DNA from: Thelephora terrestris | Taxonomy: Eukaryota > Basidiomycota > Agaricomycetes > Thelephorales > Thelephoraceae | Length of the DNA stretch: 64,000 nt | Direction: 5' to 3' | NCBI GenBank assembly: GCA_015956445.1 | Contig: WIUZ02000011.1 | Location: 186,001 to 250,000, forward strand | In this document: in pieces, positions 7,200 through 48,052 of the stretch | How positions within the stretch are numbered: position 1 is the stretch's first letter | Layout: each line of letters starts with the position of its first letter | Position numbers and translations under genes: made by a program | Notes under the pieces: generated by a model | Seen by the model: the letters and a program-made list of their open reading frames with translations, nothing else | What the model was told of the DNA's origin: nothing | Database searches by the model: none

Positions 7200-8649
7200 T
7201 CTCCAACGACTTCACCAAATTCGTAACCCCCGCCCCCGCCGTCGCAAGGCCGTCAACCAGTTTATCTCGGATTACGCGACAGAAATCGACGACGCCGTTG
7301 CCACCGTCCTTGCCAACCGTCCAAAGCTTGATAGCTGTCAACGAATGAATATATGCTACGAAGTGGCTCAGTCCCTACTCAAATCCAAGGGAGCCGACTT
7401 TATAGAGGAGCTTGAGCGGAAGGCGGCTGCTCAGCATGAAGCGGCTAAGGAGGAGTGGAATTTAATCCTGGAGGATATTTCTGCGGCGGAGGACGTTTCA
7501 CAGTACGTTTTATTCCCGGTTCTGGACTTCGCCGTCTCACTGCTGCGTTGGCAGGGCTCGCGATACACTCTTTGACGCCGTGCACCCCCTCCTCCAGGCA
7601 ACTGGCAGTTACGCCGGTTGTCATGTTTCCCTGATTGCTGGAAGCCCCGGAAAGGACGGAGAGGATGGATTTTTCACAGCGTGAGTTCAATCTCTTCTAT
7701 TTAGTGTTGGTTTGTCACTGATGCAGAAACAAGTGTTCATTGGTGGCCAGGAGACCGCACTTCGTCACCAGATTGGACGCAATGGGATAGAGACGCATTT
7801 AATACAGGAGTGGCAGGTCCGTTTCTCAAATACGTGGCCCATACTGGTATGTCACGTACTTTATCGGACGGATTTACACGTCTCATTGATTTCTAGACCA
7901 ACTCACGCAAATGGCGATCAACCCATCCCCCACCCTTTCCAACTCAATTCCCAGGAACAATACCAACGACATGCCCTCTACCGACAACCATCCTTCCACT
8001 GGTGTTGGATCCACCCCCACCACTGTGACACGTCAACTAGACCGCCGTCCACTTCCGGCTAAGAAAGCAGTGCCAGCATCTGTGCAAGGTGCCAACAAAC
8101 GCAAGCACGCTGCAAAGTCATATCCCGTCCGTTACTCCGAAGACTCGGCAAGCGAGGAAGACAACTCTGGAAACCTCAGTGGTGATGGGAGCGGCGACGG
8201 ATCATCATCTGGAGACTCCGTTTCCGAAGATGCTTCAGCACGCCCAAAACGGCAACGGACTTCGACAATTACCACTCGCTCTTTCAATTGACACTAGTGG
8301 TAGTTAACTTTTACTGAGTAAAGTGTGATAACTGGTCAGATTTCACCCTCAAAGTTATCATGATAACTTTGAGTACTGCTCAACCCATACTCACCCACTG
8401 TTTTGGGTTGATGGGAGAGGTCCCAATTAGGCAGGTGCCGAGGGTGTGGATTGCCTGGGAGTCTGGGTGGGTTTCCTTTTTGGGAATATCCCAGAAAGGA
8501 AATATTGATGGCTTATGTAAGCAATGATGGGAAACAGAATAGATGGAATGTCTATAAAAGGAAATACTATAAAAGGAAATACCATAAGAGGAAATTTGAT
8601 GGATTACATAATGGGATCATGTGACTTCCTAAAAAGGAAATTTTGCCTG

Positions 8650-8878
8650 GTATGTTATTTTTACCTGGTATGTTATTTTTACCAAATATGTTATTTTTAC
8701 CAAATATGTTATTTTTACCAAATATGTTATTTTTACCAAATATGTTATTTTTACCAAATATGTTATTTTTACCAAATATGTTATTTTTACCAAATATGTT
8801 ATTTTTACCAAATATGTTATTTTTACCAAATATGTTATTTTTACCAAATATGTTATTTTTACCAAATATGTTATTTTT
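8650..8878. repeat. 18-bp satellite, left arm (about 12 copies)
   Basis: Head-to-tail copies of an 18-bp unit containing GTTATTTTTACCAAATAT. The mirrored array in the right arm is shorter. Confidence 0.9.
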
Positions 8879-9189
8879 CTAACTACAGCAATTTCTAAGT
8901 ATGAGAACTTCCAAATAGCATAATTTTCAAAGATAGTGACCTTTCAATAAATTGATTTTCCAACATTACAATTGGAAGGTCTTCATTTCAATGAGATTTA
9001 TGTAAACTTTTCTTTGCCTTTTCTACCATATGATAGAATGTGGTTCTGTTTGTAGTCATGACCTAACCTAACCTAAACCGACCCTAACTCAACTTTATTT
9101 TGTTTTATCTTATCTCACCTAACCCCTAATCTAATCTAATCTACAAGTGTTTCATCTAATCTACCCAAAATAGTCCACCTGACCTAACC

Positions 9190-9447
9190 TAACCTACAGT
9201 AAATCCAACCCACTGTAAATGTAATCTACCATAAACATAATCTACGGTAAACATAGTCTACAATAAACATATTCTACGGCAAACATAGTCTACGGTAAAC
9301 GTAGTCTACGGTAAATGTAGTCTACGGTAAACTTAATCTACGGTAAATGTAGTCTACCATAAACGTAGTCTACGGTAAATGTAGTCTACCATAAACGTAG
9401 TCTACCGTAAACGTACTCTACCATAAACTTAATCTACCATAAACTTA
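9190..9447. repeat. CTACGGTAAAC-type repeat field, left arm
   Basis: Degenerate 16-18 bp repeats of GTAGTCTACGGTAAA and its near-inverse CTACCATAAA. The mirrored field is at 11035-11300. Confidence 0.75.
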
Positions 9448-9600
9448 ACCTAAACCTAACCTAACCTAAACCTAACCTAACCTAAACCTAACCTAACCTA
9501 AACCTAACCTAACCTAAACCTAACCTAACCTAAACCTAACCTAACCTAAACCTAACCTAACCTAAACCTAACCTAACCTAAACCTAACCTAACCTAACCT
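9448..9600. repeat. Telomere-like (CCTAACCTAAA)n array, left arm
   Basis: A regular alternation of CCTAA and CCTAAA units, bordered on both sides by degenerate CCTAAC-rich DNA (9061-9180 and 9600-9900). Confidence 0.85.
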
Positions 9601-10739
9601 ACCTACCGTCAACGTAAACCTAACCTACCGTCAACGTAAACCTAACCTGACCTAACCTACCCTAAACCTAACCTACTCCACACCTAACCTACCCTAAACC
9701 TAACCTGTCCCAAACCTAAACCTAACCTACCCTAAACCCCACCCTACAGTAGTCCACCTAACCTTACCTGACCCTGTTCTAAAGTAGCCTTACCCAACCC
9801 AATATGTTCTACTCAACCTAACCTAACTAAATCTATCTGGACCTAACCTGATCTAACCCAGCCTAGCATAACCTAACCTAATCTGCAAAAATGTGAACCT
9901 AGCTCAACCTATCCTCACCCAGCCCATTAGTATGTAACTTGGTTTATGGGAACACAGGATGAACCACACACTTCCCAACTACAAGCTGACAATTGCTCAA
10001 GTGCATCTACTTTGCTGGACCTACAAGCCAGTGGACCTATAAGCCTATATGCCCACAAACCCGTGGGGACCTATACTCAGTACATGTGACAAGCCATATT
10101 CTGTTCCAGACTGCAACCTGACTGCAACCCAAACTTGTCCACCTAGCTGGACCTATTAGCCAGTTGGTGTATTATGGGCCTACAGATCTGTAAGGGTTTG
10201 AGTTGATGAGTCCATTAGCCTGCAGGGTGAAAGGGCTTGGGTTGCAGCCAGGTTGCAGTCTGGAACAGAATATGGCTTGTCACATGTACTGAGTATAGGT
10301 CCCCACGGGTTTGTGGGCATATAGGCTTATAGGTCCACTGGCTTGTAGGTCCAGCAAAGTAGATGCACTTGAGCAATTGTCAGCTTGTAGTTGGGAAGTG
10401 TGTGGTTCATCCTGTGTTCCCATAAACCAAGTTACATACTAATGGGCTGGGTGAGGATAGGTTGAGCTAGGTTCACATTTTTGCAGATTAGGTTAGGTTA
10501 TGCTAGGCTGGGTTAGATCAGGTTAGGTCCAGATAGATTTAGTTAGGTTAGGTTGAGTAGAACATATTGGGTTGGGTAAGGCTACTTTAGAACAGGGTCA
10601 GGTAAGGTTAGGTGGACTACTGTAGGGTGGGGTTTAGGGTAGGTTAGGTTTAGGTTTGGGACAGGTTAGGTTTAGGGTAGGTTAGGTGTGGAGTAGGTTA
10701 GGTTTAGGGTAGGTTAGGTCAGGTTAGGTTTACGTTGAC

Positions 10740-11034
10740 GGTAGGTTAGGTTTACGTTGACGGTAGGTTAGGTTAGGTTAGGTTTAGGTTAGGTTAGGTT
10801 TAGGTTAGGTTAGGTTTAGGTTAGGTTAGGTTTAGGTTAGGTTAGGTTTAGGTTAGGTTAGGTTTAGGTTAGGTTAGGTTTAGGTTAGGTTAGGTTTAGG
10901 TTAGGTTAGGTTTAGGTTAGGTTAGGTTTAGGTTAGGTTAGGTTTAGGTTAGGTTAGGTTTAGGTTAGGTTAGGTTTAGGTTAGGTTAGGTTTAGGTTAG
11001 GTTAGGTTTAGGTTAGGTTAGGTTTAGGTTAAGT
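10740..11034. repeat. Telomere-like (TTTAGGTTAGG)n array, right arm
   Basis: The inverted partner of 9448-9600, visibly longer. The two arms therefore carry different copy numbers. Confidence 0.85.
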
Positions 11035-11300
11035 TTATGGTAGATTAAGTTTATGGTAGAGTACGTTTACGGTAGACTACGTTTATGGTAGACTACATTT
11101 ACCGTAGACTACGTTTATGGTAGACTACATTTACCGTAGACTACGTTTATGGTAGACTACATTTACCGTAGATTAAGTTTACCGTAGACTACATTTACCG
11201 TAGACTACGTTTACCGTAGACTATGTTTGCCGTAGAATATGTTTATTGTAGACTATGTTTACCGTAGATTATGTTTATGGTAGATTACATTTACAGTGGG
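11035..11300. repeat. CTACGGTAAAC-type repeat field, right arm
   Basis: Inverted partner of 9190-9447, made of TTTACGGTAGACTA units. Confidence 0.7.
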
Positions 11301-11635
11301 TTGGATTTACTGTAGGTTAGGTTAGGTCAGGTGGACTATTTGGGTAGATTAGATGAAACACTTGTAGATTAGATTAGATTAGGGGTTAGGTGAGATAAGA
11401 TAAAACAAAATAAAGTTGAGTTAGGGTCGGTTTAGGTTAGGTTAGGTCATGACTACAAACAGAACCACATTCTATCATATGGTAGAAAAGGCAAAGAAAA
11501 GTTTACATAAATCTCATTGAAATGAAGACCTTCCAATTGTAATGTTGGAAAATCAATTTATTGAAAGGTCACTATCTTTGAAAATTATGCTATTTGGAAG
11601 TTCTCATACTTAGAAATTGCTGTAGTTAGAAAAAT

Positions 11636-11790
11636 AACAAATCTGGTAAAAAATAACATATTTGGTAAAAATAACATATTTGGTAAAAATAACATATTTG
11701 GTAAAAATAACATATTTGGTAAAAATAACATATTTGGTAAAAATAACATATTTGGTAAAAATAACATACCAGGTAAAAATAACATACCAG
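11636..11790. repeat. 18-bp satellite, right arm (about 8 copies)
   Basis: Inverted partner of 8650-8878 with fewer copies; the innermost copy is altered (AAAAAATAAC). Confidence 0.85.
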
Positions 11791-13134
11791 GCAAAATTTC
11801 CTTTTTAGGAAGTCACATGATCCCATTATGTAATCCATCAAATTTCCTCTTATGGTATTTCCTTTTATAGTATTTCCTTTTATAGACATTCCATCTATTC
11901 TGTTTCCCATCATTGCTTACATAAGCCATCAATATTTCCTTTCTGGGATATTCCCAAAAAGGAAACCCACCCAGACTCCCAGGCAATCCACACCCTCGGC
12001 ACCTGCCTAATTGGGACCTCTCCCATCAACCCAAAACAGTGGGTGAGTATGGGTTGAGCAGTACTCAAAGTTATCATGATAACTTTGAGGGTGAAATCTG
12101 ACCTGTTATCACACTTTACTCAGTAATGTAACTACCACAGCTGCAATTGAACCTCCTTTCCAAACGCGAGCAGAGGAGAGTTGACTGTAGGACCCCCGGC
12201 CCCTGCACTGGCGGCTCGAACGTTGCTCGCTATTCCTCACGGCAACACCACAAACACCGCAGATGACTCTTCCATCACCACTTCCAAGCCTCTCAGTCCT
12301 CCTGACCTCCCGCACACCGACGTTTCTGAGGGTGCAATGGAAGTGGACGATCTTCTCGGATGCAACGCCTCCCGCAAAACATTGAGCGATCATGGTGACG
12401 TCCCTCCTACTGGGACTGAATCCACCCCCGACATACGTTGTTCTGCGAACACGATAGCTCCCGATTCTGAAAGCGAAGCCAGCGTTACCACCACCGCCGA
12501 TGCCACCACTGAGCCTGTCACAAAAACGACATCTTTAGCACGCTCCTCCGCCACCACTCCAACAATCATCACCCGCTCTCCTTCTCCCTCAGCATCCTCA
12601 ATCGTCATTGACGAAAACAAAGTCCCGGCTTTCCTCCGTAGCCATGGGAAGGGAAAACGAGAAGTCAATATATTCGACTATCTCAACCTGGTCAAAGATC
12701 ATCGTTTCCGACAGGTCCTCCTTCACTACATCCGTATCAAGGCTAGTGACCGATCTGGGGTGGGTGGGAACCTTTCCACTTCTGGGAGACCAGTAGAGAT
12801 AAGCCAATGGTCATCTCGGGCCCGCCCAGCCAGCCTCCCAGAATTCACGAGGGGCACACGAACATTCTCCGATTTTGTGGACTCAGTTTTCACGTGGTGG
12901 GGGTCCATTCAACCTGCGTGGAGGTCGTTCAAGCGTGGACAGGTCTCTCGTGAGGTTTGTGGAGAGTGGGATGCTCTCTATGCCCCTCTCATCAATGGAC
13001 TGCTCAATGTCGTCATCCTTGTGTACTGGTGGGTCAGGATTCTTGAAGAACATAAACCAGTGGATGGCGCCCGCGCTGAATACAAAGAGTTTGCGGATGA
13101 TGTAGCCTGGGTGTTTTCAAACCTTTACAACTAG

Positions 13135-19296: not shown

Positions 19297-19301
19297 CGAA
19301 G

Positions 19302-21176: not shown

Positions 21177-23169
21177 AAGGACATCTTCTTGGAGCCATCC
21201 TTGATCAGCAACACCAGCAACTTCCCCATCATCTTACCAAAACATGTCCTTCCCCAACAACTATACCTACAAAGTCGCCAACAGCATCTCTACTATCTCC
21301 CGTATTGACCGTCGTGCCGCCGCCCGTAAGACCTACGCCAGTGAGGCGGGGACTCCCTATACCACGGATGACCAGGTATTGGGGAGGTCTAGAGCTTCTT
21401 GTGTTAGCACTAACGCCTTCCTCTAGGTAGAGGTTGTACAGCATCAGCTTTAGACGTTGAGCTAACAGCTTCTAGATCTTGGAGGTCGTGAAGAAGGTGG
21501 ACGCCGAACGTCTCAGGGAGACGATCCCACATTTGATGGGGTTGACCTGGGACGATAAGCTCTGGGTCCGGTCCATGATCGCCGAGAAGGTGATCTTTCA
21601 AATGAGGGGTAGGTTCGGGGAGCTGGAGCATACGATCAAGAAGGAGCTTTGGTACACTCTGCAGAGGGGGATCTATGATCAGGACTTGTTGGAGCACGGG
21701 GCAACCGTTCCTCGGGCCGTCCGCCATGCCACTGCCGCCACCTCGTTATTGTGGTCGCTCGTTCGGGAGGGAGAGAGCCGGGTAGGTTCTCTGTTTGAAT
21801 ATTCGAGTATGACTCTCGACTAATCAAACTGCCTAGGTTGAACGTTTAGAGCGCGAGGTGAAGGAGGCGAAGGCAGACGTCCTTCGTCTATCAGCGGAGG
21901 GTCTTCAGATGAAGGAGACTCTGGCCGCCTTCCAGCAGGGGACGAACGAGGCGTTGGAGGCGATGGTCGCCAACCATCAAGAGTTGGTCGCGGGGCTGAA
22001 GGTCAGAGACAACAACATCAAGGGGGCGTTGGCCAGAAGGGATGAAAAGGTTCTTTCAGCCTTTGCAGGTTTATGCAATGACTGAGAGACTTCTTCTAGA
22101 CCGAACAGCTTGAGGACGTCGTGGCTGTGTTGACTGCGCAGGTCGCGTCCTTACAGGACAAGACCTGTAACTGCAAGGAGGGTCCGAAGTTGGTTGGTCA
22201 GGGGACTGCCGACGTTCCGTTCGAGCTGGAGTACGCCGACAAGGTGGTACTCCCATCGCCTAACCCGTCGTCCTATGCGACGCCTCCGATCGAGAATGCG
22301 GTTCCCGTCCCGACTCCGGCTCCGGCTTCTACGTTGGCCGCGTCCGACAAGGAGAACTGTCCGCGTTGCCCGCTGCAGCCGATTAGTCAGCTGGTCAAGA
22401 TCGAGGATGAAGTCATGGAGGTAGACCGGGCCGAAGATGCTCCGAGGGCCATTGAGGTACGTCCAGTGACAACAGGGCAGCGCTGTAAGCGCTCTCGACG
22501 CCGTGTTGCTCATCGCATGGCTCCATCGGCTAACCCATACCCGCGTCCAGTTGAGTCGGATGGTGACCAATCTGGTCGAGATGGGGGATGAGAGTTCCGC
22601 TATCGGGTCAACCGTCCCTACCGACAGGTCGAGTCGGAGATCCAGCTTCGCCACCAGCTTCGACTCGCAAGACAGGATCCCACCCAGGGGTCCGACGAGG
22701 GAGACGGAGGGTCGCTCGTCGACTACGTCGATAGTGCTGCCGAGCAGTCACCCGGTGATGGAGATGTGGGACCAGGTGTTCCAGAGTTCGGTGACATCTG
22801 CATCAGAAAAGGTGGCACCAGATTATCGAAGTTATGTGAGGTTATTTGAAGTTATTTGAGGTTATTCCTTACCTAACCTTTTGACCTACATCAAACAATC
22901 ACGAAATAACCGATGAAAAGGTGAATAAGGTGAAATAATCGACAAATAATGTCGCTGCCACCTATTCTGATGTGGGAGGCTGATCGGTCCGCTCGAAGGA
23001 GTCTCTTCCTATCGGCTTGAACTAGTCGTTCAGCTGAGTGCCGAAGATGGTGACGCCATGTTCGGGGAGGTCCTTGCGAGAAGGGGCCAGCACTATGATC
23101 TCCCACAGGGTTCAGCTATCTTTTCTCCATGGGTCATGGACCATACATCGTGACAATTCTCCATGGGTC

Positions 23170-23830
23170 ATGGGCCATGCAACGTTGTACAACACTATCC
23201 TTTCCCCATGCCTCATGGGTTGTACAATGCTATCCTTTCGCCATGGGGCATGGGTTGTACAACACTATCCAATTCCCATGCCCTATGGGTTGTACAACGC
23301 TATCTGTTCCCCATGGGTCACGGGTTGTACAACACTATCCAATTCCCATGCCCCATGGGTTGTACAACGCTATCCATTCTCCATGGGGCATGGGTTGTAC
23401 AACGCTATCCGATTCCCATGCCCCATGGGTTGTACAACACTATCTATTTCCCATGCCCCATGGGTTGTACAATGCTATCCGATTCTCATGCCCCATGGGC
23501 TGTACAACACTATCCGTTCCCCATAGGGCATGGGTTGTACAACACTATCCTTTCCCCATGGGGCATGGGTTGTACAACACTATCCATTCTCCATGCCCCA
23601 TGGGTTGTACAACACTATCTGTTCCACATGGGGCATGGGTTGTACAACACTATCCTTTCCCCATGGGGCATGGGTTGTACAACACTATCTATTTTCCATG
23701 CCCCATGGGTTGTACAATGCTATCCAATTCCCATGCCCCATGGGTTGTACATCACTATCCAATTCCCATGCACCATGGGTTGTACAACAGCATCTTGTGC
23801 CCATGGGGCATCAGTTGCAGAATGGTGTCC
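23170..23830. repeat. 35-bp satellite, left arm
   Basis: The unit contains GGGTTGTACAACACTATCC next to a 13-bp core that appears either as CCATGGGGCATGG or as its inverse CCATGCCCCATGG. Because 35 is not a multiple of 3 and stops are rare in the unit, all three frames stay open for hundreds of codons. Confidence 0.9.
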
Positions 23831-24112
23831 TTTCTCCATGTCCCATGGACTATATCACTATTCCAGGAAAGGAGATACTTTATAAATCAACCATTAGCTG
23901 TGTGAATTTGAAAAAATTAGACTCTGTTTGTATGCATGATAGACCATATATCAGTTTGTGGCTCTAACCTAATGGAAACTAAACTTAACCTGATAATAGC
24001 CACAACCTAATCCTCAATCTAACCTGAGCCAATGTAAACTTGACCCATGAACCTAAGCCTAACCTAATCCTAAACCTGGTCTAATCCCAAATCTACCCCT
24101 AACCTGACCTGA

Positions 24113-24262
24113 CCTGACTTAACCCAACCTAACCTAACCTTATCTGACCTGAACCTACACCTAACCTAACCTAACCTAACCTAACCTAACCTAACCTAAC
24201 CTAACCTATACCTAAACTAACCTATACCTATACTAACCTATACCTAACCTAACCTGGTATGG
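24113..24262. repeat. Telomere-like (CCTAA)n array, left arm
   Basis: Perfect CCTAACCTAA runs near 24164-24205, flanked by degenerate CCTAACCTATA units. Confidence 0.85.
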
Positions 24263-24904
24263 GCAAACCTAACCTACCTATCATGACCTGTTTCAGCCTA
24301 ATGTCATGTATGCCAGCCAAGACTAACTTCACCCAGTTGCAAACATATGACTTGGGTCACAGGACCATAAAGCAAACTGCAGTCCCCTCACTCTGTGCCC
24401 AACCATCCGATAAGCCAACAGACGCACATATATATCATCAGCAACCCAGCATCATGCTTATCACCCATGTTCAACCACAAACCACTCTCACCCTTTGTTC
24501 TGTGCCATCTCACAGACAAACCACAACTCAAGTTCATCCACCTCCTTGGGCCCACAAGCAAGTGGACTACAAACATATGGTTTATAGACTTATAACATAT
24601 TCCACACAAGGATGAATATGGGTGGGTGAGCTAGAGTTATGGTTAGGCTTTGAGATGGCACAGAACAAAGGGTGAGAGTGGTTTGTGGTTGAACATGGGT
24701 GATAAGCATGATGCTGGGTTGCTGATGATATATATGTGCGTCTGTTGGCTTATCGGATGGTTGGGCACAGAGTGAGGGGACTGCAGTTTGCTTTATGGTC
24801 CTGTGACCCAAGTCATATGTTTGCAACTGGGTGAAGTTAGTCTTGGCTGGCATACATGACATTAGGCTGAAACAGGTCATGATAGGTAGGTTAGGTTTGC
24901 CCAT

Positions 24905-25060
24905 ACCAGGTTAGGTTAGGTATAGGTTAGTATAGGTATAGGTTAGTTTAGGTATAGGTTAGGTTAGGTTAGGTTAGGTTAGGTTAGGTTAGGTTAGGTT
25001 AGGTGTAGGTTCAGGTCAGATAAGGTTAGGTTAGGTTGGGTTAAGTCAGGTCAGGTCAGG
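24905..25060. repeat. Telomere-like (TTAGG)n array, right arm
   Basis: Inverted partner of 24113-24262. Confidence 0.85.
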
Positions 25061-25374
25061 TTAGGGGTAGATTTGGGATTAGACCAGGTTTAGGATTAGG
25101 TTAGGCTTAGGTTCATGGGTCAAGTTTACATTGGCTCAGGTTAGATTGAGGATTAGGTTGTGGCTATTATCAGGTTAAGTTTAGTTTCCATTAGGTTAGA
25201 GCCACAAACTGATATATGGTCTATCATGCATACAAACAGAGTCTAATTTTTTCAAATTCACACAGCTAATGGTTGATTTATAAAGTATCTCCTTTCCTGG
25301 AATAGTGATATAGTCCATGGGACATGGAGAAAGGACACCATTCTGCAACTGATGCCCCATGGGCACAAGATGCT

Positions 25375-26400
25375 GTTGTACAACCCATGGTGCATGGGAA
25401 TTGGATAGTGATGTACAACCCATGGGGCATGGGAATTGGATAGCATTGTACAACCCATGGGGAATGGAAAATAGATAGTGTTGTACAACCCATGCCCCAT
25501 GGGGAAAGGATAGTGTTGTACAACCCATGACCCATGGGGAACAGATAGTGTTGTACAACCCATGGGGCATGGAGAATGGATAGTGTTGTACAACCCATGA
25601 CCCATGGGGAATGGATAGTGTTGTACAACCCATGACCCATGGGGAACGGATAGTGTTGTACAACCCATGGGGCATGGGAATCGGATAGCGTTGTACAACC
25701 CATGGGGCATGGGAAATGGATAGCGTTGTACAACCCATGCCCCATGGAGAAAGGATAGCGTTGTACAACCCATGGGGCATGGGAATTGGATAGTGTTGTA
25801 CAACCCATGGGGCATGGAGAATGGATAGTGTTGTACAACCCATGCCCCATGGAGAAAGGATAGCGTTGTACAACCCATGACCCATGGGGAACAGATAGTG
25901 TTGTACAACCCATGGGGCATGGGAAATGGATAGTGTTGTACAACCCATGGGGCATGGGAAATAGATAGTGTTGTACAACCCATGACCCATGGGAAATGGA
26001 TAGTGTTGTACAACCCATGCCCCATGGAGAATGGATAGCGTTGTACAACCCATGCCCCATGGAGAATGGATAGTGTTGTACAACCCATGACCCATGGGGT
26101 ATGGATAGTGTTGTACAACCCATGGGGCATGGGAATCGGATAGCGTTGTACAACCCATGCCCCATGGAGAATGGATAGCGTTGTACAACCCATGACCCAT
26201 GGGGAACAGATAGCATTGTACAACCCATGGGGCATGGGAATTGGATAGTGTTGTACAACCCATGGGGCATGGGAATTGGATAGCGTTGTACAAACCATGC
26301 CCCATGGGGAAAGGATAGCATTGTACAACCCATGAGGCATGGGGAAGGGATAGTGTTGTACAACCCATGGGGCATGGGCAACGGATACTTTTCCATTACC
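25375..26400. repeat. 35-bp satellite, right arm
   Basis: About 30 copies of the inverted unit. Core orientation and the GGG/GGT core variant change from copy to copy. The 380-390 codon frames here are artefacts of the repeat. Confidence 0.9.
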
Positions 26401-28800: not shown

Positions 28801-28820
28801 GACCTGGCCTAGTTCAGCCT

Positions 28821-28851
<31 letters not shown>

Positions 28852-29846: not shown

Positions 29847-29877
<31 letters not shown>

Positions 29878-29909
29878 AGGCTGAACTAGGCCAGGTCAGA
29901 GTTAGGTTT

Positions 29910-30195
29910 AGGGCAGGTTAGGTTTAGGTTTAGGTTTAGGTTTAGGTTTAGGTTTAGGTTTGGTGCTAGGATAGGTTTGGGGCAGGCTGGGTTTAGGGCA
30001 GGTTAGGTTTGGGGTTAGGTTAGGTTAGGTTAGGTTAGGTTAGGTTAGGTTTAGGTTAGGTTAGGTTAGGTTAGGTTAGGTTAGGTTTAGGTTTAGGTTA
30101 GGTGGAGGTTTAGGTCTAGGTTAGGGTTAGGGTTAGGGTTAGGGTTAGGCTAGGTTAGGTTAGGTTAGGTCCAGGACTAGGTTTAGGGCTAGTTT
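29910..30195. repeat. Telomere-like array, right arm
   Basis: Inverted partner of 28441-28800, including the TTAGGG units near 30122-30148. Confidence 0.85.
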
Positions 30196-31246
30196 ATGAC
30201 CACAAACTGGTCTGTACTTCATGATATAATGAATATTACAGATATATTTGTATTTCACTATTTTTATCAAATTTTTTGGGATTTTTCTGAATTTTTTGGG
30301 CAAAAAATATATTAATATTGAAATTATGGGCTATTCAATGGACCAAAAAAATTGAAATAATTTTTATAAAATATTTATCTATACTCTGGAATTTTTGGAA
30401 TTTTTTTGGAATTTTTTCCTGATTTTTCCAGCCAGAAAAACAATTTTTTGAATACTTCTGGGAATAATTTACCATTTTGGGCACTTTCTAGACGTGTGGG
30501 AATTTTTTCAGTATTTTTTAGGATTTTTCTGGCATTTTTCCGAATTTTCTAGCATATAATTTCCTTTTTAGGGAATTTCCTTTTTTGGTAATTTTTGCCA
30601 AAATAATTTTTGAGTTGCTTATGTAAGCCATCAAAATTTCCTTTTTTGGTAATCCATCAAATATTTCCTAAAAAGGAATTTCCTTTTTAGGAAAGACCCC
30701 TCCAAAAGCATTTTTGAGACGCTTATGTAAGCCATCAAAAGTTTCCTTTTTTGGTCGGTCACATGACCTGATTACATAAGCAACACCCACTTTTTTCAGT
30801 CACATGACCTGCTTATGTCAGCCATCAAAATTTCCCAAAAAGGAAATTCAATATCAAAATCATTTTTGAGTTGCTTATGTAAGCCATCAAAAATTTCCTT
30901 TTTGGGAAATTTTGATCGGAAATTCCCACAGTCCATTTTTTATTTTCTGCCCTCCCTGACACCCGTGGGAATTTTTTCAGAATTTTCTGGAATTTCCCTG
31001 AATTTTTCAATTTTTATTATATAAGCAATCCACTCCCCCGGGCCACCCACACTGTCGGCACCTGCCTAATTGGGAGCACCAGTGCCCAGTAAGCTGGGTC
31101 CCAGTCCCCCCCATAATTTCCATTAAAACTTTATGAGTAAAATATCCCCCCTCAGGCCATTCAAAAACTCATGAGAAAAATCATTCAAATTTGCGACAAA
31201 AACTCCTAAAACATTAATGTTTTTAATAAGGACTACTGCGCGAGGC

Positions 31247-37042: not shown

Positions 37043-37051
37043 AGGCGTGCC

Positions 37052-40000
37052 GTGAGTCTTGAAGTGGAAGAGGAAGACGGATTTGGCCTAGTAACCGGCA
37101 GAAATAGTCTTGAAGGATCAATGCCCGATGTAACGGATGGCTATGAATCCGCGATAAGCGGTATCAGTAGAGAAAACGACCGAGAAGGACCTGAACTTAC
37201 CACGAAAGGTCCGCCCCACAAAACAGGGACGCCTGATAAGCCGGCGTCGGCCCAAGAGGGTAAAGGTGAAGACCCTGAGGAGGTCGATAAAGGAGATATT
37301 GAAGAGAAGGAAGACTCAGGGCGAAACCTAAGAAATGGTGAGACACGAGGAAAAGAGTCCGAAAACGACCTTGTAACACTTAGCTTGTTTGGAAGCCAAG
37401 AGAAGGACGTAGAAGGAGCTAAAAGGGATAAGGTCAGGGTTGAACATGATAGAAGGATGCCAGATAACGTACCTGAAGATGTCGACGAAGAGTCGTCAGC
37501 GGCGAAACAGTCTACGGACGATAATGCCGTACGACACCATGGCGTAACAAGGCTGTATGACGGGCAACAGCATCAGACCCTGAGAAACAATAAGCCCAGG
37601 ACAGAGGTGATAAGACAAGAAGGAACTTACCAAGATAAGTCCGGATCAGAGGACAACGGACTGGTTTCACGAAGTGGAGCCGGAACAACGTCCGAAGAGA
37701 GGAAAGACAGGATGGTGTCGATCCGGGATGAGATCGAACGCGTAACCACGCCAGGAACAAGGAACCAGGAACGGAGCAAGTGGAGTCACGGACGATGGGA
37801 AGACAGCAAGGACGACCCCGCTTCTGACCGTACTGGAGACGAAAGCGTAGGGGAAGGAGCAATCTACAACGAAGAAGATGGTCCCCTGCAAAATCGGATC
37901 AGTACGCCAAGACAACGGGTGACACTAAGGTACTTACCAGAACCGGGATATCGTCCACAAGGACTGTTGGCATCAAAGGAGATGGTGATCTTCGCACAAG
38001 ACGAAGATCTAGGTCAGCGGCACCTACACGCGTCTGATGTGACGTTAGTGATTGAAGGACCCGCGGGGAGTAGGACCGTGTTTCATGGGAACGTCACGCT
38101 TAGGCTGGATGAACCAAAGCCGGGTGACGTGATCTACATGCCTGTCAGGAATAAGGTTAGGCGAGCGCATGAGTACGTGTTCCGTAGAGGCGTGCATCTT
38201 GGAGGTGGCGCGACCGTGCTCTCGACGGAGACCACGACCAAAACTAAAGGAGGAAACAAAATAAAATGGAACGCCGTAAGGAAGGAAGAACTCGAGGATG
38301 TAATCGACGACATGAACCGACACCCCATGGTCAAGGGCGAAAAAGTCCGGACATACACGGTCAATAAGCTAGAAGACGGAAAAATCAGGGTATGCACCGG
38401 ACTTTACCACGAAAGGACTAAACCACGGACCAAGAATGCTTACGACAGCATGTCAGATGAGTCTGACTCCGGCGACGAACGAAACGATAGGTACTGGCAT
38501 CAAGACGAGAAGCGCCGGGGTCTTCCCAAATATGGAAGAGACCCACAGACCTCCGCTGGAGCGACTGGCGCCCGAGTACAAAGTTGGAATAATTTTGCAA
38601 ACGATAAGGGCCGCAGCCACCTTATCGATTCAAAACCTGTGGGAACTTGTGAAAAGGGTTCAGACCACCCTGAGGATGAAGTCAGAAAGAAAATAAATGT
38701 AAATTTGGGTATAAAAAGCGAAGGTGTAGCATACCTTGAAAACCTCGCCCCTCTCAAATCTACCGCCCCAGACGTCGCCAAAACGGAGTCAACTACTTAT
38801 GGTGAGTGTTCTTGTGGCTGTCAGCAGTGTCCTAGGCTAAAGGAAGGGCTGTTGCAGACATTGTTGACGCCGCCGTCGGAACCCAGCCCTCCGAGGCTAG
38901 GGCGTACTATCGAGCTACCGGTGCCCGACAACGTGCCTACCATGGAAGAGGTAATGGACGTCAACGTCCCACCCCTCGGCCAACGAAGCCCAGGACTGTT
39001 GGCCGCCGCCCACTTCGAGAAGTTAACGGATCCCACCCTAGGCCGTGCGGAGGACTCCTTCTTCGCGTTCGGAGCTATCATCGTGGGTGGTGGAGTGGAG
39101 CAGCCCCCGTACGTCTACCAGGGAGCGGCGTACATACACCTGTACGGTCCAGAGCTGGACGCGAGCAGCAACCGCCCGACGCCACCGCCCCTACGCCGAG
39201 TCCTCGGAGCCCCTTCAGCGATTTTTTCTCCATGGGTCATGGGGCGTGCAATGGTGACAAACTCCCATGGGTCATGGGGCGTGCAACGTTGTACAACGGT
39301 ATGGGTTCCCTATGCTGGGTTGCCCAAGGGTATAGATTTCCCATGGGTCATGGGTTGTACAACACTATTAATTCTCCATGGGTCATGGTTGTACAACGCT
39401 ATTAATTCTCCATGGGTCATGGGTTGTACAAGGGTATAGATTCTCCATGGGTCATGGGTTGTACAACGCTATAGGTTTCCCATGGGTCATGGGTTGTACA
39501 ATGGTATAGATTCTCCATGGGTCATGGGTCGTACAACACTATTAATTCCCCATGGGTCATGGGTTGTACAAGAGCATGGGTTGTACAGGGGTGTCTGTTC
39601 TCCCTGGGGCATGGAACATATGCCTATTCTAGGAAAGGTCATCAATCATGAATCACCCAACAAGGACATCTTTGATGGATTCCCAAATAGAAAAGTCTCC
39701 TGGGTTACATAACAGGCTGTCAACTTTGAAAGTAATCTACTGTTTGTATGCCCAATAGAATATCTCTATTTGGGGTCCTAACCTAAACCTAAACCTAAAC
39801 CTAAACCTAACCTAACCCTAACCTAAACCTAAATATAAACATAAACACAAACCTAACCTGACCTAAACTAAACCTAACCTAAATCTAAACCTAACATTAC
39901 CTAATCCTCACCTAACATAATCTAACCTAACCTAACCTAACCTAAACCTAACCTAACCTAAACCTAACCTAACCTAAACCTAAACCTAACCTAACCTAAA

Positions 40001-43000
40001 CCTAACCTAACCTAAACCTAACCTAACCTAAACCTAAACCTAACCTAACCTAAACCTAACCTAACTCAACCCAGATTCAACCTCATCTAACCTAACCTAA
40101 CCTAACCTAACCTAACCTCACCTAAACTAACCTAACCTCACCTAAACTAAGCCTAAAGCTAGCCCAGCCTCACACAAAGTAGCCCAGCCAACTTATCCTG
40201 AAGTAGTCCATCTAATCTAACACCTACCTAACATGCCCTGTTTCAACTCAACCTCATGTATGTCAGCCTAAGCTAATTTTCCCAGTTACCAACACATGAG
40301 TTGGCTAACAGAAACATAAATCAAACTGTAGCCCTCTTCCCCCTCACACATCCTGTGCACAATCATTACTCAAGCAAACCAGGCAAAAAATCTAGTGGAC
40401 CTATAATCTCAGTGGTTGAACTTGGCTGACAAACATGCTTGCTGGGTTATTGTTGTACATATGTGTGCCTGTGGGCTAGCAGATCCACTAAACTGTCAGT
40501 CTAGGTAGACTTGAGTAGTGATTGTGCAGAGTGTGGGGGGGGGGCTGCAGTTTGCTTTATGTTTCTGTGACCCAGCTCACATTTTGGTAACTGGAACAAG
40601 GTAGCTTAGGCTGGCATTTATTAGGTTAAATTGAAACAGGGCATGTTAGGTAGGTGTTAGATTAGATGGACTACTTCAGGATAAGTTGGCTGGGCTACTT
40701 TGTGTGAGGCCAGGCTAACTGTAGGCTTAGTTTAGGTGAGGTTAGGTTAGGTTAGGTTAGGTTAGGTTAGGTTAGGTTAGGTTAGGTTAGGTTAGGTTAG
40801 GTTAGGTTAGATTATGTTAGGTGAGGATTAGGTAATGTTAGGTTTAGATTTAGGTTAGGTTTAGTTTAGGTCAGGTTAGGTTTGTGTTTATGTTTATATT
40901 TAGGTTTAGGTTAGGGTTAGGTTAGGTTTAGGTTTAGGTTTAGGTTTAGGTTAGGACCCCAAATAGAGATATTCTATTGGGCATACAAACAGTAGATTAC
41001 TTTCAAAGTTGACAGCCTGTTATGTAACCCAGGAGACTTTTCTATTTTGGGAATCCATCAAAGATGTCCTTGTTGGGTGATTCATGATTGATGACCTTTC
41101 CTAGAATAGGCATATGTTCCATGCCCCAGGGAGAACAGACACCCCTGTACAACCCATGCTCTTGTACAACCCATGACCCATGGGGAATTAATAGTGTTGT
41201 ACGACCCATGACCCATGGAGAATCTATACCCTTGTACAACCCATGACCCATGGGGAATCAATACCATTGTACAACCCATGACCCATGGGAAACCTATACC
41301 CTTGTACAACCCATGACCCATGGAGAATCTATACCCTTGTACAACCCATGACCCATGGAGAATTAATAGTGTTGTACAACCCATGACCCATGGGAAATCT
41401 ATACCCTTGGGCAACCCAGCATAGGGAACCCATACCGTTGTACAACGTTGCACGCCCCATGACCCATGGAGAAAAAATAGCTGAACCCTGTGGTCCTCGA
41501 CACTTACGAAGACCTGTTCCCCAGTCGGTACCACCTCGGTCCCGACCCCGTCCCTACTCTGGACATCCCTTGGAATACGCCGTTCCCGGACCAGTCGGTA
41601 GCCCGACCCTCTGGTAAAGTGAACCCACCGCCGTACGGTCCGCAAAAGACGACCGTTACCGATGGCCGTGGACGACCCGTATCGATGGCCGACGCGATCG
41701 TCAGATTGCGACGGATCGAGGAAGAGATGGACTCAGAAGACAGCGCTGATGCCGACACCGGATCGATGGACCTAGAAGATAGTGACAGCGATGACATCAG
41801 TAGTAAGCGCAACACCTCGCTTCATGAACAACAAAAAACTAATGAATACTTAGCTTCGGACGAGTCGTATGGACCCCTGCTTAGACGTCCCGGTACGCCC
41901 AACCCATGGAAGGGTAGATCGCAATCCATACCTAAGATCGCGGTTATGGACGACGAGATGACCGACCATGTTCCCCCTATTGCTAACAATCAGCCGAAGT
42001 CCGACGAATCTCCGAGGATGGGGTTTACTCATGTCGATACCCCGTTCGACTCCCTTGACGGACTTCACCTCTGCCCCGGCTCCCCGATTATTCTAAAATA
42101 TCCTGATGACTTCGAAGAAGACGACGAGTTGACGGATGACATGCCATCGTACTCACCGCTCGCGAAGGACAGGAAGTTGTTAGCCGAGCCTGACAGGGAA
42201 GATGTCGCCAAGAAGGAAGCGCTGGACCGAGTCCATCAGAGTTTCGCACGCCTAGAGCCATACTTGGATATCCTGTTAGAACATGGAGATCAAAGCGACG
42301 TCCAGGATTTCTTTGCTAAGTTGGGTCTACTCCAGATTGCCTACGATATCGGCGCCCAACGCCTCAAGGGGATCGAGCCAGATTGGGACTATTGGGTAAA
42401 AAGAATTACCGACGTCTTGGAGGAGCGTAGCATGGTGGACACGGGTGAGGTCGCAACTGACCTCCTTCAGTTGAGGGAGGCATGGCAAAGGGGACGAAGC
42501 TTTGAACAGGAAGAGGAGAAGAAGCGACAGGATGAGGAAAAGAAGCCGGAGGTAAAAAAGGAAGCAGTGGATGAATCCAGAGCGACCCCGTACAAGACAC
42601 GCGATTGGCTTTCCGATGTCAAGCACCATTTCCAGGACCACGACGAAAATATGAAGCAGGACGAGGAGTTTTACGTACCAAAGAGTCCGGTCCCCGGAAA
42701 CCGACCCCCTTACCTTTTGCCGATGCCACACAATCCGGAAGAATTTCGGGAGCTTCGTAAACGAGTATCCGACCTTGAGGAGGACTTCGGATCGACGTTG
42801 GACGGATTGAGGGCTAAGGTTAAGCGGATGGATGACCAGATCATGGAGGATGGGTGCCTACTTACGAATTTGCAGTGGAAGTTTAATGAGACGCGGCGTT
42901 GCGAGGCGCAGGAACGAGAATGTCAGGAGATGGCGTACAATACGGACGACCCCCGAGGCCTTCGGCGATTCCACGCCCGCACGGTAATTGATGAGTGGCT

Positions 43001-46000
43001 GGCAGGCGCGAGGATGGATCTGACTCGGCTAAACGGTGAAATTAAGGTTGTGGAAAGAAGGATCGAAGCCACTCACATTGACGCCGAGTCCATCAAGGCG
43101 AGGCTCGATAAGATGGTAACGTTGGCGCCTGACCTTGAAGGACTCACGAAAACGGTCGAAGATAACCACCAGGCCTACGATCGGGAACTGAAGAGCCTTC
43201 GGGACGACGTCAATTCGGCCCTCCTTATCCTCGCCACCAGGGATAACGACTCGGATATCGCCGAACTCAAGCAAGATATGGCGACCTTCAAAAAATTCTA
43301 CGGCCCAAAGACTCAGTTCGCACACTGGGGGCAAGGGGTCAAATACCCGGTGGGTACATGCTGAATACATTGTGATCACAGTCAAAAAGTGATCACAATG
43401 TGCCCAGTGGGAAAAATTTGAATACATTCAAAATGTACCTGGCCATGTGAACCCAATGTGCCCAGTGGGCACATTTTGATTGTGATCACAATGTATCCAT
43501 CAATGTGATCTCAATGTGCCCACTGGGGACATTTTGATTGCGATCACAATGTACACATCAATGTGATCTCAATGTGCCTGCTGTGCACATTTTAATTTCT
43601 TTCACAATGTTCCCATCAGTGTGTTCACAATGTACCCAGCTCATTACATAATAGTTCCTTTCACAATGTTGTCCACAATGTGTCCAGCATGTGGCTGAGC
43701 CACTCATTCAAACTTCTTTCACAAAGTATCCAGTGATGTGTCTAGAATGTGTACAGCCATACACATAGTGATTTCTTTGAAAGTTCATGATGAAATTGAA
43801 CAATATTGTGATTACATTGTGATTACTTCAAAAAGAACCCCCTGGGGACATTATGGACACATCACTGGATAATCTTTGAAAGAATTTTGAATGAGTGGCT
43901 CAGCCACATGCTGGACACATTGTGGACAACATTGTGAAAGAAACTATTATGTAATGAGCTGGGTACATTGAGAACACATTGATGGGAACATTGTGATCAC
44001 AATCAAAATGTGCACAGCAGGCACATTGAGATCACATTGATGGGAACATTGTGATCACAATCAAAATGTGCACAGCAGGCACATTGAGATCACATTGATG
44101 GGAACATTGTGATCACAATCAAAATGTGCACAGCAGGCACATTGAGATCACATTGATGTGTACATTGTGATCGCAATCAAAATGTCCCCAGTGGGCACAT
44201 TGAGATCACATTGATGGGTGCATTGTGATCACAATCAAAATGTGCCCACTGGGCACATTGGGTTCACATGGCCAGGTACATTTTGAATGTATTCAAAATT
44301 TCCCCACTGGGCACATTGTGATCACTTTTTGACTGTGATCACAATGTATTCAGTATGTACCCACCAGGTATTTGACCCCTTGCCCCCAGTGGCAGCAGCT
44401 GCAGCCCATTCAATATAATTGTCATGCTAGTAAACATCACTTGAATTATATTTCCCTATGCTTATTTACACATTTACATTTGTTGCTGTACCCCTAGGCA
44501 TCTGACCCATTGCCTTGGTCCAGTGGCCAGTTGGGACCCATCGTCTCGGGTCTTGAAAAATGATGGAGTGATGGGGTAGATCCAGTTCCCCGGGTTCACT
44601 TCCTGGTGCCACAACCGTGGGAAACATAATTTCAGAGGTTAGGCTAGGTTTCCCAATAGGGTAATAGGCTTATGTAATAAAAAATATTAAGTTGCCATAA
44701 ATTCTGAAAAATACCAAAAGAATTTTAAAAATTACCAGAAAATTCCCACGGGTTTTGGAAAGGGCCAAAAATAGAAATGAAGCAAGGAGAATTTGTAATC
44801 AAATTTTCCTAAAAGGGAAATTTTGATGGCTTATATAAGCCAATCATGTGACTTAACCAAAGTGAGGCTGGGAGTAGTTCTGGAAGCCTATGTAAGCTGG
44901 TCACAATATTTCCCAAAAAAGGATATTTTGATGGATTATGTAAGCAGTTTAAAAATAGAATTGCCTAATAAGAAAATTTTGATAGCTTACATAACCAATT
45001 TAAAAATAGAATTTCCTAAAAAGGAAATTTTGATGGCTTATGTAAGCAGATCATGTGACTGAAAAAAGTAAAATTGATGGGACAAGTAGGTCATGTGATT
45101 TATCAAAAAAGGAAATTTTTGATGGCTTACATAAGCATCTCAAAAATAGTTTTCAATCACATTTCCCAAAAAGGAAATTTCCTTTTTAGGAAATAGTTTT
45201 TTGAGGAATTTTTACTGCTTACAAATGCAAATTGAAAATCATTTTTCATAAAATTTTATTTCTTTCAAAATTCAAAATTGTTGTATATGGAAGCAAAAGC
45301 TTGAACTTTATCTATCATTTCTATCACCTAATAAGTATAGTTCTGTTTGTGGTCCTAATCCAAACCAAAGTGGGCCTCCAACCTAGCTTACCCTAAGGTA
45401 ATCCATGAGACTCAAGTGGTCACTTGACACTTACCTAGACTTAAACTAACCTAAACCTACCCTAACCTGCCCTAAGCCCAAACCTGACCTGTCCTAAACT
45501 AACCTAAACCTAAACTAACCTAAACCTAACCTAACCTAAACCTAACCTAACCTAAACCTAACCTAACCTAAACCTAACCTAACCTAAACCTAACCTAACC
45601 TAAACCTAACCTAACCTAAACCTAACCTAACCTAAACCTAACCTAACCTAAACCTAACCTAACCTAAACCTAACCTAACTTAATCTAAAAGTAACCTAAC
45701 CTAACCTGACCTGATTGTAAACCTGATCTAAGCTAAACATAACCTAACCTAAACCTACCCTAAGGCTGAGCTAACCTAACCTAACCTAACTCAACCCAAC
45801 CTAACTTGAGCCCAACCTCACCTAACCTCAACCCAGCTCACTAGCACACAGCTTGCAGTTTCCACTGCAATGTGAACCAATCACCAAATTGCAACTTAAT
45901 TGCAACTTGACTGTAGCTTACCACAGCTCAATTGATTACCACATCTTGAACCAATTACCCCAGCTGGACCACTTATTGTGGCTTGACTGGTTACTGCAGC

Positions 46001-48052
46001 TTGACCGGTTACTGCAACTCGACCAATTACCACAGCTCAACCAGTTACTGCAGCTTGGCTGGGTATTTGCAACTTAGCTGATTAACACAGCTTGACAACA
46101 GTTAATTGAACCCAAATTCACTTACAACCTTGTATGACTATAAATCTACAGGCCAAGAACTGGTAATATATCCTGAATTGGCTTGTGGGTCCAGCCTGGT
46201 AAGTGGACTTGAGTTCAATTGAGCTATGATCAAGTTGAGGTCAAGTTGTGGTAATTGGTCGAGTTGCAGTAACCAGTCAAGCTGCAGTAACCAGTCAAGC
46301 CACAATAAGTGGTCCAGCTGGGGTAATTGGTTCAAGATGTGGTCATCAATTGAGCTGTGGTAAGCTACAGTCAAGTTGCAATTAAGTTGCAATTTGGTGA
46401 TTGGTTCACATTGCAGTGGAAACTGCAAGCTGTGTGCTAGTGAGCTGGGTTGAGGTTAGGTGAGGTTGGGCTCAAGTTAGGTTGGGTTGAGGTTAGGTTA
46501 GGTTAGCTCAGCCTTAGGGTAGGTTTAGGTTAGGTTATGTTTAGCTTAGATCAGGTTTACAATCAGGTCAGGTTAGGTTAGGTTACTTTTAGATTAAGTT
46601 AGGTTAGGTTTAGGTTAGGTTAGGTTTAGGTTAGGTTAGGTTTAGGTTAGGTTAGGTTTAGGTTAGGTTAGGTTTAGGTTAGGTTAGGTTTAGGTTAGGT
46701 TAGGTTTAGGTTAGGTTAGGTTTAGGTTAGGTTAGGTTTAGGTTAGTTTAGGTTTAGGTTAGTTTAGGACAGGTCAGGTTTGGGCTTAGGGCAGGTTAGG
46801 GTAGGTTTAGGTTAGTTTAAGTCTAGGTAAGTGTCAAGTGACCACTTGAGTCTCATGGATTACCTTAGGGTAAGCTAGGTTGGAGGCCCACTTTGGTTTG
46901 GATTAGGACCACAAACAGAACTATACTTATTAGGTGATAGAAATGATAGATAAAGTTCAAGCTTTTGCTTCCATATACAACAATTTTGAATTTTGAAAGA
47001 AATAAAATTTTATGAAAAATGATTTTCAATTTGCATTTGTAAGCAGTAAAAATTCCTCAAAAAACTATTTCCTAAAAAGGAAATTTCCTTTTTGGGAAAT
47101 GTGATTGAAAACTATTTTTGAGATGCTTATGTAAGCCATCAAAAATTTCCTTTTTTGATAAATCACATGACCTACTTGTCCCATCAATTTTACTTTTTTC
47201 AGTCACATGATCTGCTTACATAAGCCATCAAAATTTCCTTTTTAGGAAATTCTATTTTTAAATTGGTTATGTAAGCTATCAAAATTTTCTTATTAGGCAA
47301 TTCTATTTTTAAACTGCTTACATAATCCATCAAAATATCCTTTTTTGGGAAATATTGTGACCAGCTTACATAGGCTTCCAGAACTACTCCCAGCCTCACT
47401 TTGGTTAAGTCACATGATTGGCTTATATAAGCCATCAAAATTTCCCTTTTAGGAAAATTTGATTACAAATTCTCCTTGCTTCATTTCTATTTTTGGCCCT
47501 TTCCAAAACCCGTGGGAATTTTCTGGTAATTTTTAAAATTCTTTTGGTATTTTTCAGAATTTATGGCAACTTAATATTTTTTATTACATAAGCCTATTAC
47601 CCTATTGGGAAACCTAGCCTAACCTCTGAAATTATGTTTCCCACGGTTGTGGCACCAGGAAGTGAACCCGGGGAACTGGATCTACCCCATCACTCCATCA
47701 TTTTTCAAGACCCGAGACGATGGGTCCCAACTGGCCACTGGACCAAGGCAATGGGTCAGATGCCTAGGGGTACAGCAACAAATGTAAATGTGTAAATAAG
47801 CATAGGGAAATATAATTCAAGTGATGTTTACTAGCATGAACAATTATATTTATTGGGCTGCAGCTATTGCAGTTCGCTCTCGAAGAGCACGGACGTAATA
47901 TCGCCACCCTCATGAGTTGCTTCCAGTATCTTTATCAACTTGTGTACTCGGCCTACGCTGCTGGCGCCCGGCAGGAAAACCAAGCTTGCGCCACTGAGGC
48001 CTCCTCTCCTCCTCATGTCGATCCAGAAGCCAAGGCCGTTGAAGCACTTTGA
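37052..48052 (+). CDS. G2 long accessory frame of unknown function, split by two palindromes
   Basis: Coding stretches at 37052-39213, 41489-43313 and 47877-48052, separated by transposon insertions with clean target duplications. Together about 1400 codons. The first stretch is Glu/Lys/Arg-rich with a compact region near 37920-38420 (VTLRYLPEPGYRPQGLL, TLRLDEPKPGDVIYMPV). The second is acidic then strongly helical (LRKRVSDLEEDFGSTLDGL, AKVKRMDDQIM), a likely coiled coil. I recognise no domain. It stands between gag-protease and polymerase, where gypsy elements normally have nothing. It could be a far-diverged structural protein or a captured gene. Confidence 0.5.
39225..39610. repeat. 35-bp satellite, left arm of 39214-41485
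   Basis: About 9-10 units of CCATGGGTCATGG followed by GTTGTACAAC, all with the core in one orientation, unlike the array at 23170. Confidence 0.85.
39779..40170. repeat. Telomere-like (CCTAACCTAAA)n array, left arm
   Basis: CCTAAA units at the outer edge, mixed CCTAA/CCTAAA inside. Confidence 0.85.
40735..40955. repeat. Telomere-like (TTAGG)n array, right arm
   Basis: Shorter than its partner at 39779-40170 and mostly pure TTAGG, so the arms have changed independently. Confidence 0.85.
41110..41475. repeat. 35-bp satellite, right arm of 39214-41485
   Basis: Inverted partner of 39225-39610. Confidence 0.85.
43323..44391. mobile_element. CACTG-ended palindromic MITE (1069 bp, 3-bp TSD)
   Basis: Ends CACTGGGGGCAAGGGGTCAA; GCA is duplicated (43320-43322 and 44392-44394). 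A near-continuous palindrome centred near 43830, saturated with ACATTGTG / CACAATGT. One block of about 63 bp is repeated three times in the right arm (43985-44160). It shares tips and duplication size with 5974-7199 and 48262-48788. The youngest layer in this nest. Confidence 0.9.
45425..45800. repeat. Telomere-like (CCTAACCTAAA)n array, left arm
   Basis: Very regular between 45523 and 45680. Confidence 0.85.
46440..46830. repeat. Telomere-like (TTTAGGTTAGG)n array, right arm
   Basis: Inverted partner of 45425-45800. Confidence 0.85.

Follow-up and report, generated by a model that had tools for sequence, protein, structure and literature searches.

Here, we describe five giant foldback elements, E1 to E5, which lie within a 64,000-nucleotide stretch of the genome of the basidiomycete Thelephora terrestris (GenBank contig WIUZ02000011.1; C3:186001-250000 of a 40.6-Mb genome in 60 contigs), referred to below as the window. 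We propose that the five are foldback transposons of one superfamily, non-autonomous as far as read, whose arms recombine with each other and whose likeliest helper is a transposase of the KDZ type, and we put the probability of this reading at about 0.6. It draws on a body plan common to all five elements, on dispersed copies flanked by target duplications (perfect in nine of the 18 E1 copies), a mark of foldback transposons, and on E1 copies in which the two arms are near-identical, the two tips stay unlike and the central loop is found in both orientations.

Five foldback elements and their common plan

A self-comparison of the window confirmed five large inverted repeats of 2.3-4.5 kb at the places where an earlier note, made from the sequence alone, had put them, with very long inverted arms making up most of each element (Table 1). 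They also share the single plan which that note had proposed. From the outside inwards, the tips are followed by satellite or motif-rich DNA (with 18-bp units in E1 and 35-bp units in E2 and E4), the motif CTGTTTGT, a telomere-like array, a core and a loop. CTGTTTGT occurs eight times in the window, always mirrored in the arms of E1, E2, E4 and E5, and is replaced by CAGTTTGT in E3. The arrays consist of TTAGG/TTTAGG and some TTAGGG units and are turned towards each other in all five elements, the C-rich strand lying 5' (CCTAA in the left half and TTAGG in the right half: E1 54/75, E2 23/23, E3 54/44, E4 54/34, outer E5 52/48).

The proposed positions held for E1 and E3, but the ends of E2 and E4 had to be moved 7 bp outwards, and E5 proved to be a composite of two nested elements, an inner CACTG palindrome starting 2 bp inside the left end of an outer foldback. 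Likewise, target duplications of 3, 7 or 8 bp had been claimed, of which those of 7 bp (E1, E2, E4 and outer E5) and 8 bp (E3 of the window) were confirmed, but those of 3 bp in E2 and E4 were not, the sole 3-bp case being the inner CACTG palindrome. In E2 and E4, the near-perfect repeat opens with TTCAGC, and the flanking GGG or CCC mimics a 3-bp duplication. Outside the repeat, the two elements, which lie in opposite orientations, have the outer heptamers CACAGGG and GAGCCCC in common, one at either end, which rules out 3-bp duplications, and the exact 7-bp repeats GATCTCC (E2) and GTCCTCG (E4) lie directly outside these heptamers. CACAGGG also stands outside TTCAGC at a third tip of the E2 type, in copy L009, of which one end was read. 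What looks like a short target duplication bordering a perfect repeat can be misleading. With these corrections, E1, E3 and E5 have CA..TG ends and E2 and E4 have CA..TC ends.

Homology between the elements and further copies with target duplications, on both of which the earlier note had let its proposal depend, were found. Scored against 200 dinucleotide shuffles per pair, with the arrays left out, the cores of E1 and E3 (z 16), E2 and E3 (z 14), E1 and E2 (z 8) and E2 and E4 (z 37) resemble one another. The subterminal regions of E1, E3 and E5 match mutually (z 12 to 57), as do those of E2 and E4 (z 55), and the six pairs that combine the two groups are unrelated there (z -1.4 to 1.1). A 25-bp subterminal motif, GGAAATTTTGATGGCTTACATAAGC, recurs in E1, E3 and E5 and has no match elsewhere in the window at up to five errors.

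Across the genome, 18 copies of E1 carry both tips, alongside a 110-bp stump (C8), a hybrid (C45) and one copy cut by a contig end (C23). Nine of the 18 are flanked by perfect 7-bp duplications and one by a duplication with one mismatch, two carry mutually swapped duplications, and six have unmatched flanks. E3 is represented by at least 108 tips of two subfamilies (75 of 80 matches in one list, the five dropped being already present in a second list, and all 33 in that second list), which form at least 47 pairs, 46 within a subfamily and one mixed. Among the eight E3 copies read with both tips, the duplication measures 8 bp in the window and 7 bp in L069, the flanks of L067 are inverted and identical, and those of the other five are unmatched. 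At L067 (1-314 and 7977-8301), these flanks are inverted copies with 100% identity over 300 bp, and the palindrome extends past the E3 element. L068 is a short E3 form of 1866 bp without array or core, the arms of which are about 99% identical. E3 core sequence of 94-96% identity without a listed E3 tip occurs at C21:70147, C59:182881, C59:624954, C59:665718, C58:866795, C12:2339594 and C3:444583, and these places could represent other subfamilies or carry other tips. For E2 and E4, 38 of the best 40 among 112 candidate matches start at the first base of the query, and outer E5 has one close copy, that of the window itself, and a 70% match over 220 bp at C12:885220.

The window holds two more CACTG elements, at 5974-7199 (E0) and 48262-48788 (E6). 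Together with the inner E5 palindrome they show the CAC..GTG ends and 3-bp duplications of EnSpm/CACTA elements (GCA for inner E5, TCT for E0, TGA for E6), and they are short (0.5-1.2 kb), with no gene seen inside. Outside the window, five of six CACTG pairs read have a 3-bp duplication (L041, L044 twice, L064 and L067), which is absent in L005. The E3 insertion splits a frame that, judged by eye, reads like a Ty3 integrase, and in the E2 35-bp satellite (23154-26441) several frames are open over 240-400 codons, a likely by-product of the period. A search of the window against Rfam gave no match.

Table 1. Foldback elements of the window and their parts (positions count from the first base of the window)
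Feature	Position	Strand	Details
E1 foldback	8292..12143	.	tips CACTAGTGGTAGTTA / CAGCTGTGGTAGTTA; duplication CAATTGA at 8285-8291 and 12144-12150
E2 foldback	23104..26549	.	ends CACAGGGTTCAGC / GAGCCCCTTCAGC; duplication GATCTCC at 23097-23103 and 26550-26556
E3 foldback	27394..31238	.	tip CAGTAGTCCTTATTAAAAAC on both sides; 8-bp duplication CGCGAGGC at 27386-27393 and 31239-31246
E4 foldback	39207..41492	.	E2 family, opposite orientation; duplication GTCCTCG at 39200-39206 and 41493-41499
E5 outer foldback	43321..47869	.	tips CAGCAGCTGCAGCC / CAATAGCTGCAGCC; duplication CAGTTCG at 43314-43320 and 47870-47876
E5 inner CACTG palindrome	43323..44391	.	3-bp duplication GCA; nested in left tip of outer E5
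E1 telomere-like array, left arm	9442..9735	+	right arm 10640-11035
E2 telomere-like array, left arm	24050..24255	+	right arm 24908-25113
E3 telomere-like array, left arm	28461..28797	+	right arm 29901-30170
E4 telomere-like array, left arm	39777..40156	+	right arm 40722-40955
E5 telomere-like array, left arm	45433..45833	+	right arm 46456-46828
GGAAATTTTGATGGCTTACATAAGC in E3 (up to 5 errors)	27734..28015	+	4 per arm
GGAAATTTTGATGGCTTACATAAGC in E1	starts 8498, 8590; 11824, 11915		2 per arm
GGAAATTTTGATGGCTTACATAAGC in E5	44816-45111; 47125-47421		5 per arm
E1 central asymmetric loop, 91 bp	10140..10230	.	either orientation relative to the tips in other copies

Arm identity, unlike tips and probable exchange between copies

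The two arms of a copy resemble each other far more closely than arms of different copies do. In the mid-arm of E1 (166 columns, 18 copies), the difference is 0.17% within and 4.9% between copies, and throughout columns 60-270 the within-copy difference does not exceed 0.8%, the within- and between-copy values being equal in columns 90-120. In the first 30 columns this relation is reversed (17% within versus 9% between copies) because the two tips are unlike. E3 shows no within-copy mismatch over its first 260 bp in seven of seven copies (0.8% between copies) and none in the mid-arm in six of six (3.2%), and its core has zero or one within-copy mismatch in five of five (2.0%). Over 640 bp from the tip, mismatches and gaps between the two E3 arms number 0/0 in the window copy, L065 and L067, 0/2 in L068, 1/4 in L070, 1/32 in L063/64 and 5/54 in L066, compared with 7-78 mismatches between copies when the right end of L069 is excluded; the arms of L069 are not comparable, an insert shortening the right one. 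The residual differences between arms lie mostly in the tandem arrays and the centre; in E2 and E4, the two arms differ in their satellite parts too.

The tips of E1 behave differently from the arms. One CACTAG and one CAGCTG tip are present in 17 of the 18 copies, the exception being L044, which has two CAGCTG tips and no target duplication. With the other 17 copies turned CACTAG-left (L044 cannot be turned), the loop lies forward in seven (window, L042, L054, L056, L057, L059 and L061) and reverse in ten (L043, L045, L048, L051, L052, L053, L055, L058, L060 and L062), and both orientations occur among the nine copies with perfect duplications (three forward, six reverse). Near-identical arms, preserved unlike tips and both loop orientations together point to recombination between the arms of one element, which we infer from the comparison of copies, no event having been observed directly; conversion from another copy could be an alternative way to turn the loop. 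The E1 copies thus amount to a natural experiment, in which the fixed, unlike tips mark the outside and the loop marks the inside of the palindrome. Tips and loop indicate that the arms of a palindrome of 3-4 kb recombine often enough to nearly randomize the loop, and the question of how foldbacks keep their arms near-perfect becomes testable.

It is also conceivable, if rather unlikely, that each transposition rebuilds the palindrome from one arm, by replication that copies a hairpin or half-element, so that arm identity dates from the birth of the copy. Such a process would equally produce near-identical arms in copies that differ from each other, and at L067 the palindrome indeed runs into the flanks. 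However, rebuilding from one arm would equalize the tips too, contrary to what is seen in 17 of the 18 E1 copies, and, unlike crossover between the arms, it would not be expected to give both loop orientations. Similarly improbable in our estimate is a stronger version of the recombination model, a self-inverting superfamily in which the unlike tips are actively preserved, the rest is homogenized and the facing arrays have a function, perhaps in binding Myb/telomere-type proteins or through a tendency to recombine that preserves the palindrome.

Exchange seems to extend beyond single elements. The hybrid L047 opens as E1, with the tip and about 300 bp of that element, changes over to E3 at a GGAAATTTGATGGATT stretch which the two have in common, and ends in an E3 tip; its flanks do not match. 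Furthermore, each of the C25 copies L042 and L043 carries the 7-bp duplication of its partner. Their order is the one predicted for an inversion of the intervening 12.7 kb, which recombination between the two copies may have brought about. When the orphan duplications were compared, this pair alone fitted among 19 E1 ends, and none matched among 14 E3 ends. Assembly switches could mimic both the hybrid and the swap.

The earlier note had suggested that different transposases may have moved bodies of the same design. An exchange of tips between bodies that share a core would account for subterminal regions that are unrelated between E1/E3/E5 and E2/E4 when the cores of E1, E2 and E3 match, and L047 is a hybrid of this kind, yet its unmatched flanks leave transposition of the hybrid undemonstrated. 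The suggestion rested on 3-bp duplications in E2 and E4 and loses that footing now that these measure 7 bp, the same length as in E1 and outer E5. Given equal duplication lengths, it is simpler to assume that the elements descend from a common ancestor and had their ends replaced than to invoke different transposases, to which we accord only a small chance.

We favor recombining arms within one superfamily, and the following course of events may be envisaged. The superfamily would duplicate 7, sometimes 8, bp of its target, and E1 to E5 would have inherited an ancestral plan of motif, telomere-like array, core and loop, all mirrored. Gene conversion and crossover between the arms of one element would homogenize everything except the outermost 30 bp or so and would flip the loop, and recombination between copies would generate hybrids and inversions. 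A transposase acting in trans, most likely a KDZ transposase of the Kyakuja type, would move the elements and would need two unlike tips. The arrays would be an inherited, slippage-prone part of the body rather than captured chromosome ends.

The proposed helper transposase and the remaining alternatives

A profile search of the genome gave 126 KDZ matches, which were merged by hand into 59 loci above the cut-off, two places below it being excluded. The 7-bp duplication of the Kyakuja type is seen in E1, E2, E4, outer E5 and the E3 copy L069, the E3 of the window having 8 bp. A KDZ transposase is hence the likeliest helper, though unproven. A further hint comes from solo tips. Searching with CAGCTGTGGTAGTTA and one mismatch allowed gave 53 matches, 43 of them exact (a control with the reversed pattern gave 59, not split by mismatch), and five of the exact tips lie away from E1 copies with no E1 sequence beside them (C7:730633, C13:526496, C22:22386, C23:59695 and C58:1474340), where about 0.08 would be expected by length alone. 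On the inward side of each of these five tips, a KDZ locus lies no more than 30 kb away (4.6 to 29.4 kb), and one tip has a locus outward as well; for other foldback tips, the corresponding figures at 30 kb are 22/183 inward and 23/183 outward (E2 and E4 contribute 36 of 68 rows to this background, 38 starting at the first base of the query and two in tandem being excluded). Because the 30-kb limit was picked after looking and only one of the five solo tips has a KDZ locus within 10 or 20 kb, this association is suggestive only.

A hAT-type helper with 7-bp duplications (hAT7) seems distinctly improbable. Such families do occur in rust fungi (PMC12730594, as far as this source was consulted), but the genome yielded only four matches to the hAT dimerisation domain, all of them above the cut-off of 21.4 bits (22.6-36.4 bits), although split exons could be missed. 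Mutator-type foldbacks have duplications of about 9 bp, and the 7- or 8-bp duplications found here rule against an assignment to that group.

Full-length relatives with the same tips and a transposase gene, for which the earlier note had proposed to look, did not come to light among the 13 listed E3 pairs longer than 6 kb, of which five and part of a sixth (L046) were read. These five are rejected as autonomous elements, since they hold inserts, a reverse transcriptase frame or repeats resembling long terminal repeats (LTRs). The inserts of L065, L067 and L069 recur elsewhere and look like solo LTRs, that of L067 also containing a CACTG element. L066 carries, at 1885-5388, a reverse transcriptase frame of 1168 amino acids adjoining inverted repeats of about 0.87 kb. 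Its only Pfam match is RVT_1, under the cut-off of that family (E 6e-6), Rfam gave no match for L066 and a PDB search with the frame found none; it looks Penelope-like, with hammerhead-like motifs. In another E3 copy, a 7.2-kb CACGG insert with a TA duplication runs from about 1268 of L063 into L064 and carries a CACTG palindrome. The E1 copy L051 contains a 2.9-kb insert that repeats sequence of L067 and, in part, of window 14079-15750. Four frames of this insert and two of L069 had no Pfam match.

Several observations weigh against our reading. In E1, arm identity gives a weaker signal at 60-230 bp from the tip (0.26% within versus 0.69% between copies) and in the core (1.5% versus 3.7%, comparable in three of 18 copies only), and the single closest match of an arm is its own partner in 13/36 (mid-arm), 9/36 and 2/6 (core) cases, because many copies are alike. 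The cores of E4 and E5 are little like those of E1 and E3, the six remaining core pairs scoring z -0.2 to 3.4. Unmatched flanks, due to assembly joins or recombination, are found in 6/18 E1 and 5/8 E3 copies. As to the helper, the inverted repeats are long in all five elements, unlike bases being confined to the very ends of E1, E2/E4 and E5, and the E2/E4 ends are CA..TC, not the CA..TG of Kyakuja. In none of these families was a transposase gene shown to lie between the tips. An E3-like pair (C3:1044747-1057121) does enclose one KDZ gene, but 0.34 loci are expected by chance, and the finding is not above that level. Finally, four E3 pairs of 7167-7208 bp from both subfamilies, one arm of which is longer by about 3.3 kb (C10:226306-233513, C12:136866-144061, C23:2669771-2676969 and C60:500118-507284), contain no KDZ match and may represent an autonomous form that codes for a different transposase.

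That the arrays are telomeres captured from chromosome ends, or marks of break healing, appears slightly less probable still than a hAT helper. The unit, TTAGG/TTTAGG with some TTAGGG, and the Penelope-looking frame of L066 would suit such an origin. On the other hand, the arrays are mirrored, at the same place and in the same orientation, in all five elements, and among 45 exact matches to four TTAGGG units (overlaps counted), 29 lie between paired E3 tips, none near a contig start and none at a contig end (all contigs but C13). The contig extremities that were read, 12 starts and one end, are not telomeric, and the host telomere repeat was not seen there. An assembly artefact, to which the end of contig C23 within an E1 copy and the many copies without matching flanks might point, is very improbable given the exact 7-bp duplications around nine of 18 E1 copies with both loop orientations among them.

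Comparison with known transposons

In the open-license literature searched, as far as the sources were consulted, no foldbacks with telomere-like arrays and no palindromic elements of the Kyakuja type are described with this layout. Parts of it have counterparts elsewhere. Tetris of Drosophila virilis is likewise a non-autonomous foldback with satellite-like arm repeats and tips shared with another element, but its repeat unit is about 220 bp and the parts consulted mention no telomere-like array (PMC4079207). In the portions consulted of work on Cryptococcus (PMC12810828), CACTG elements (CNIRT6) have the start and the 3-bp duplications of E0, inner E5 and E6, the window copies being short and without a visible gene, and CACGG elements (CNEST) are resembled by the L063/L064 insert in its CACGG start and TA duplication.

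For the KDZ group, the same Cryptococcus source gives KDZ1 241-bp inverted repeats and 8-bp duplications, and KDZ2 and KDZ3 duplications of 4-8 bp (PMC12810828). Kyakuja has 7-bp duplications and CA..TG ends, with no inverted repeats reported in the sections consulted, and Zisupton and a Dileera family have 8 bp (PMC12730594). The duplications of 7 or 8 bp and, in E1, E3 and E5, the CA..TG ends agree with this group. The failure to find a transposase gene in the foldbacks and the lack of inverted repeats in Kyakuja, as described there, set the two apart and count, like the points gathered above, against a KDZ helper.

The P superfamily, Galileo included, has a THAP/P-type transposase. Our comparison with Galileo rests on structure and duplications; no search for a P-type transposase was made here. 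Galileo is a foldback-like element of Drosophila, the arms of which are long and repetitive inside; its target duplications measure 7 bp, and hybrid copies occur (PMC3573991, PMC2775673; both seen in part). It resembles the present elements in all these features, its hybrids also having unmatched 7-bp flanks, and in swapped duplications at inversion breakpoints and a middle segment that lies in opposite orientation in two copies (PMC2775673, PMC3573991). It differs in its host kingdom, and the descriptions consulted include neither telomere-like arrays nor conserved unlike tips. The earlier note knew of no described family with this layout, which holds for its details but not for long-armed, repetitive foldbacks with 7-bp duplications and hybrids. 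As far as these descriptions go, the way in which E1 to E5 appear to work is already known from Galileo, and their layout is unusual in detail.

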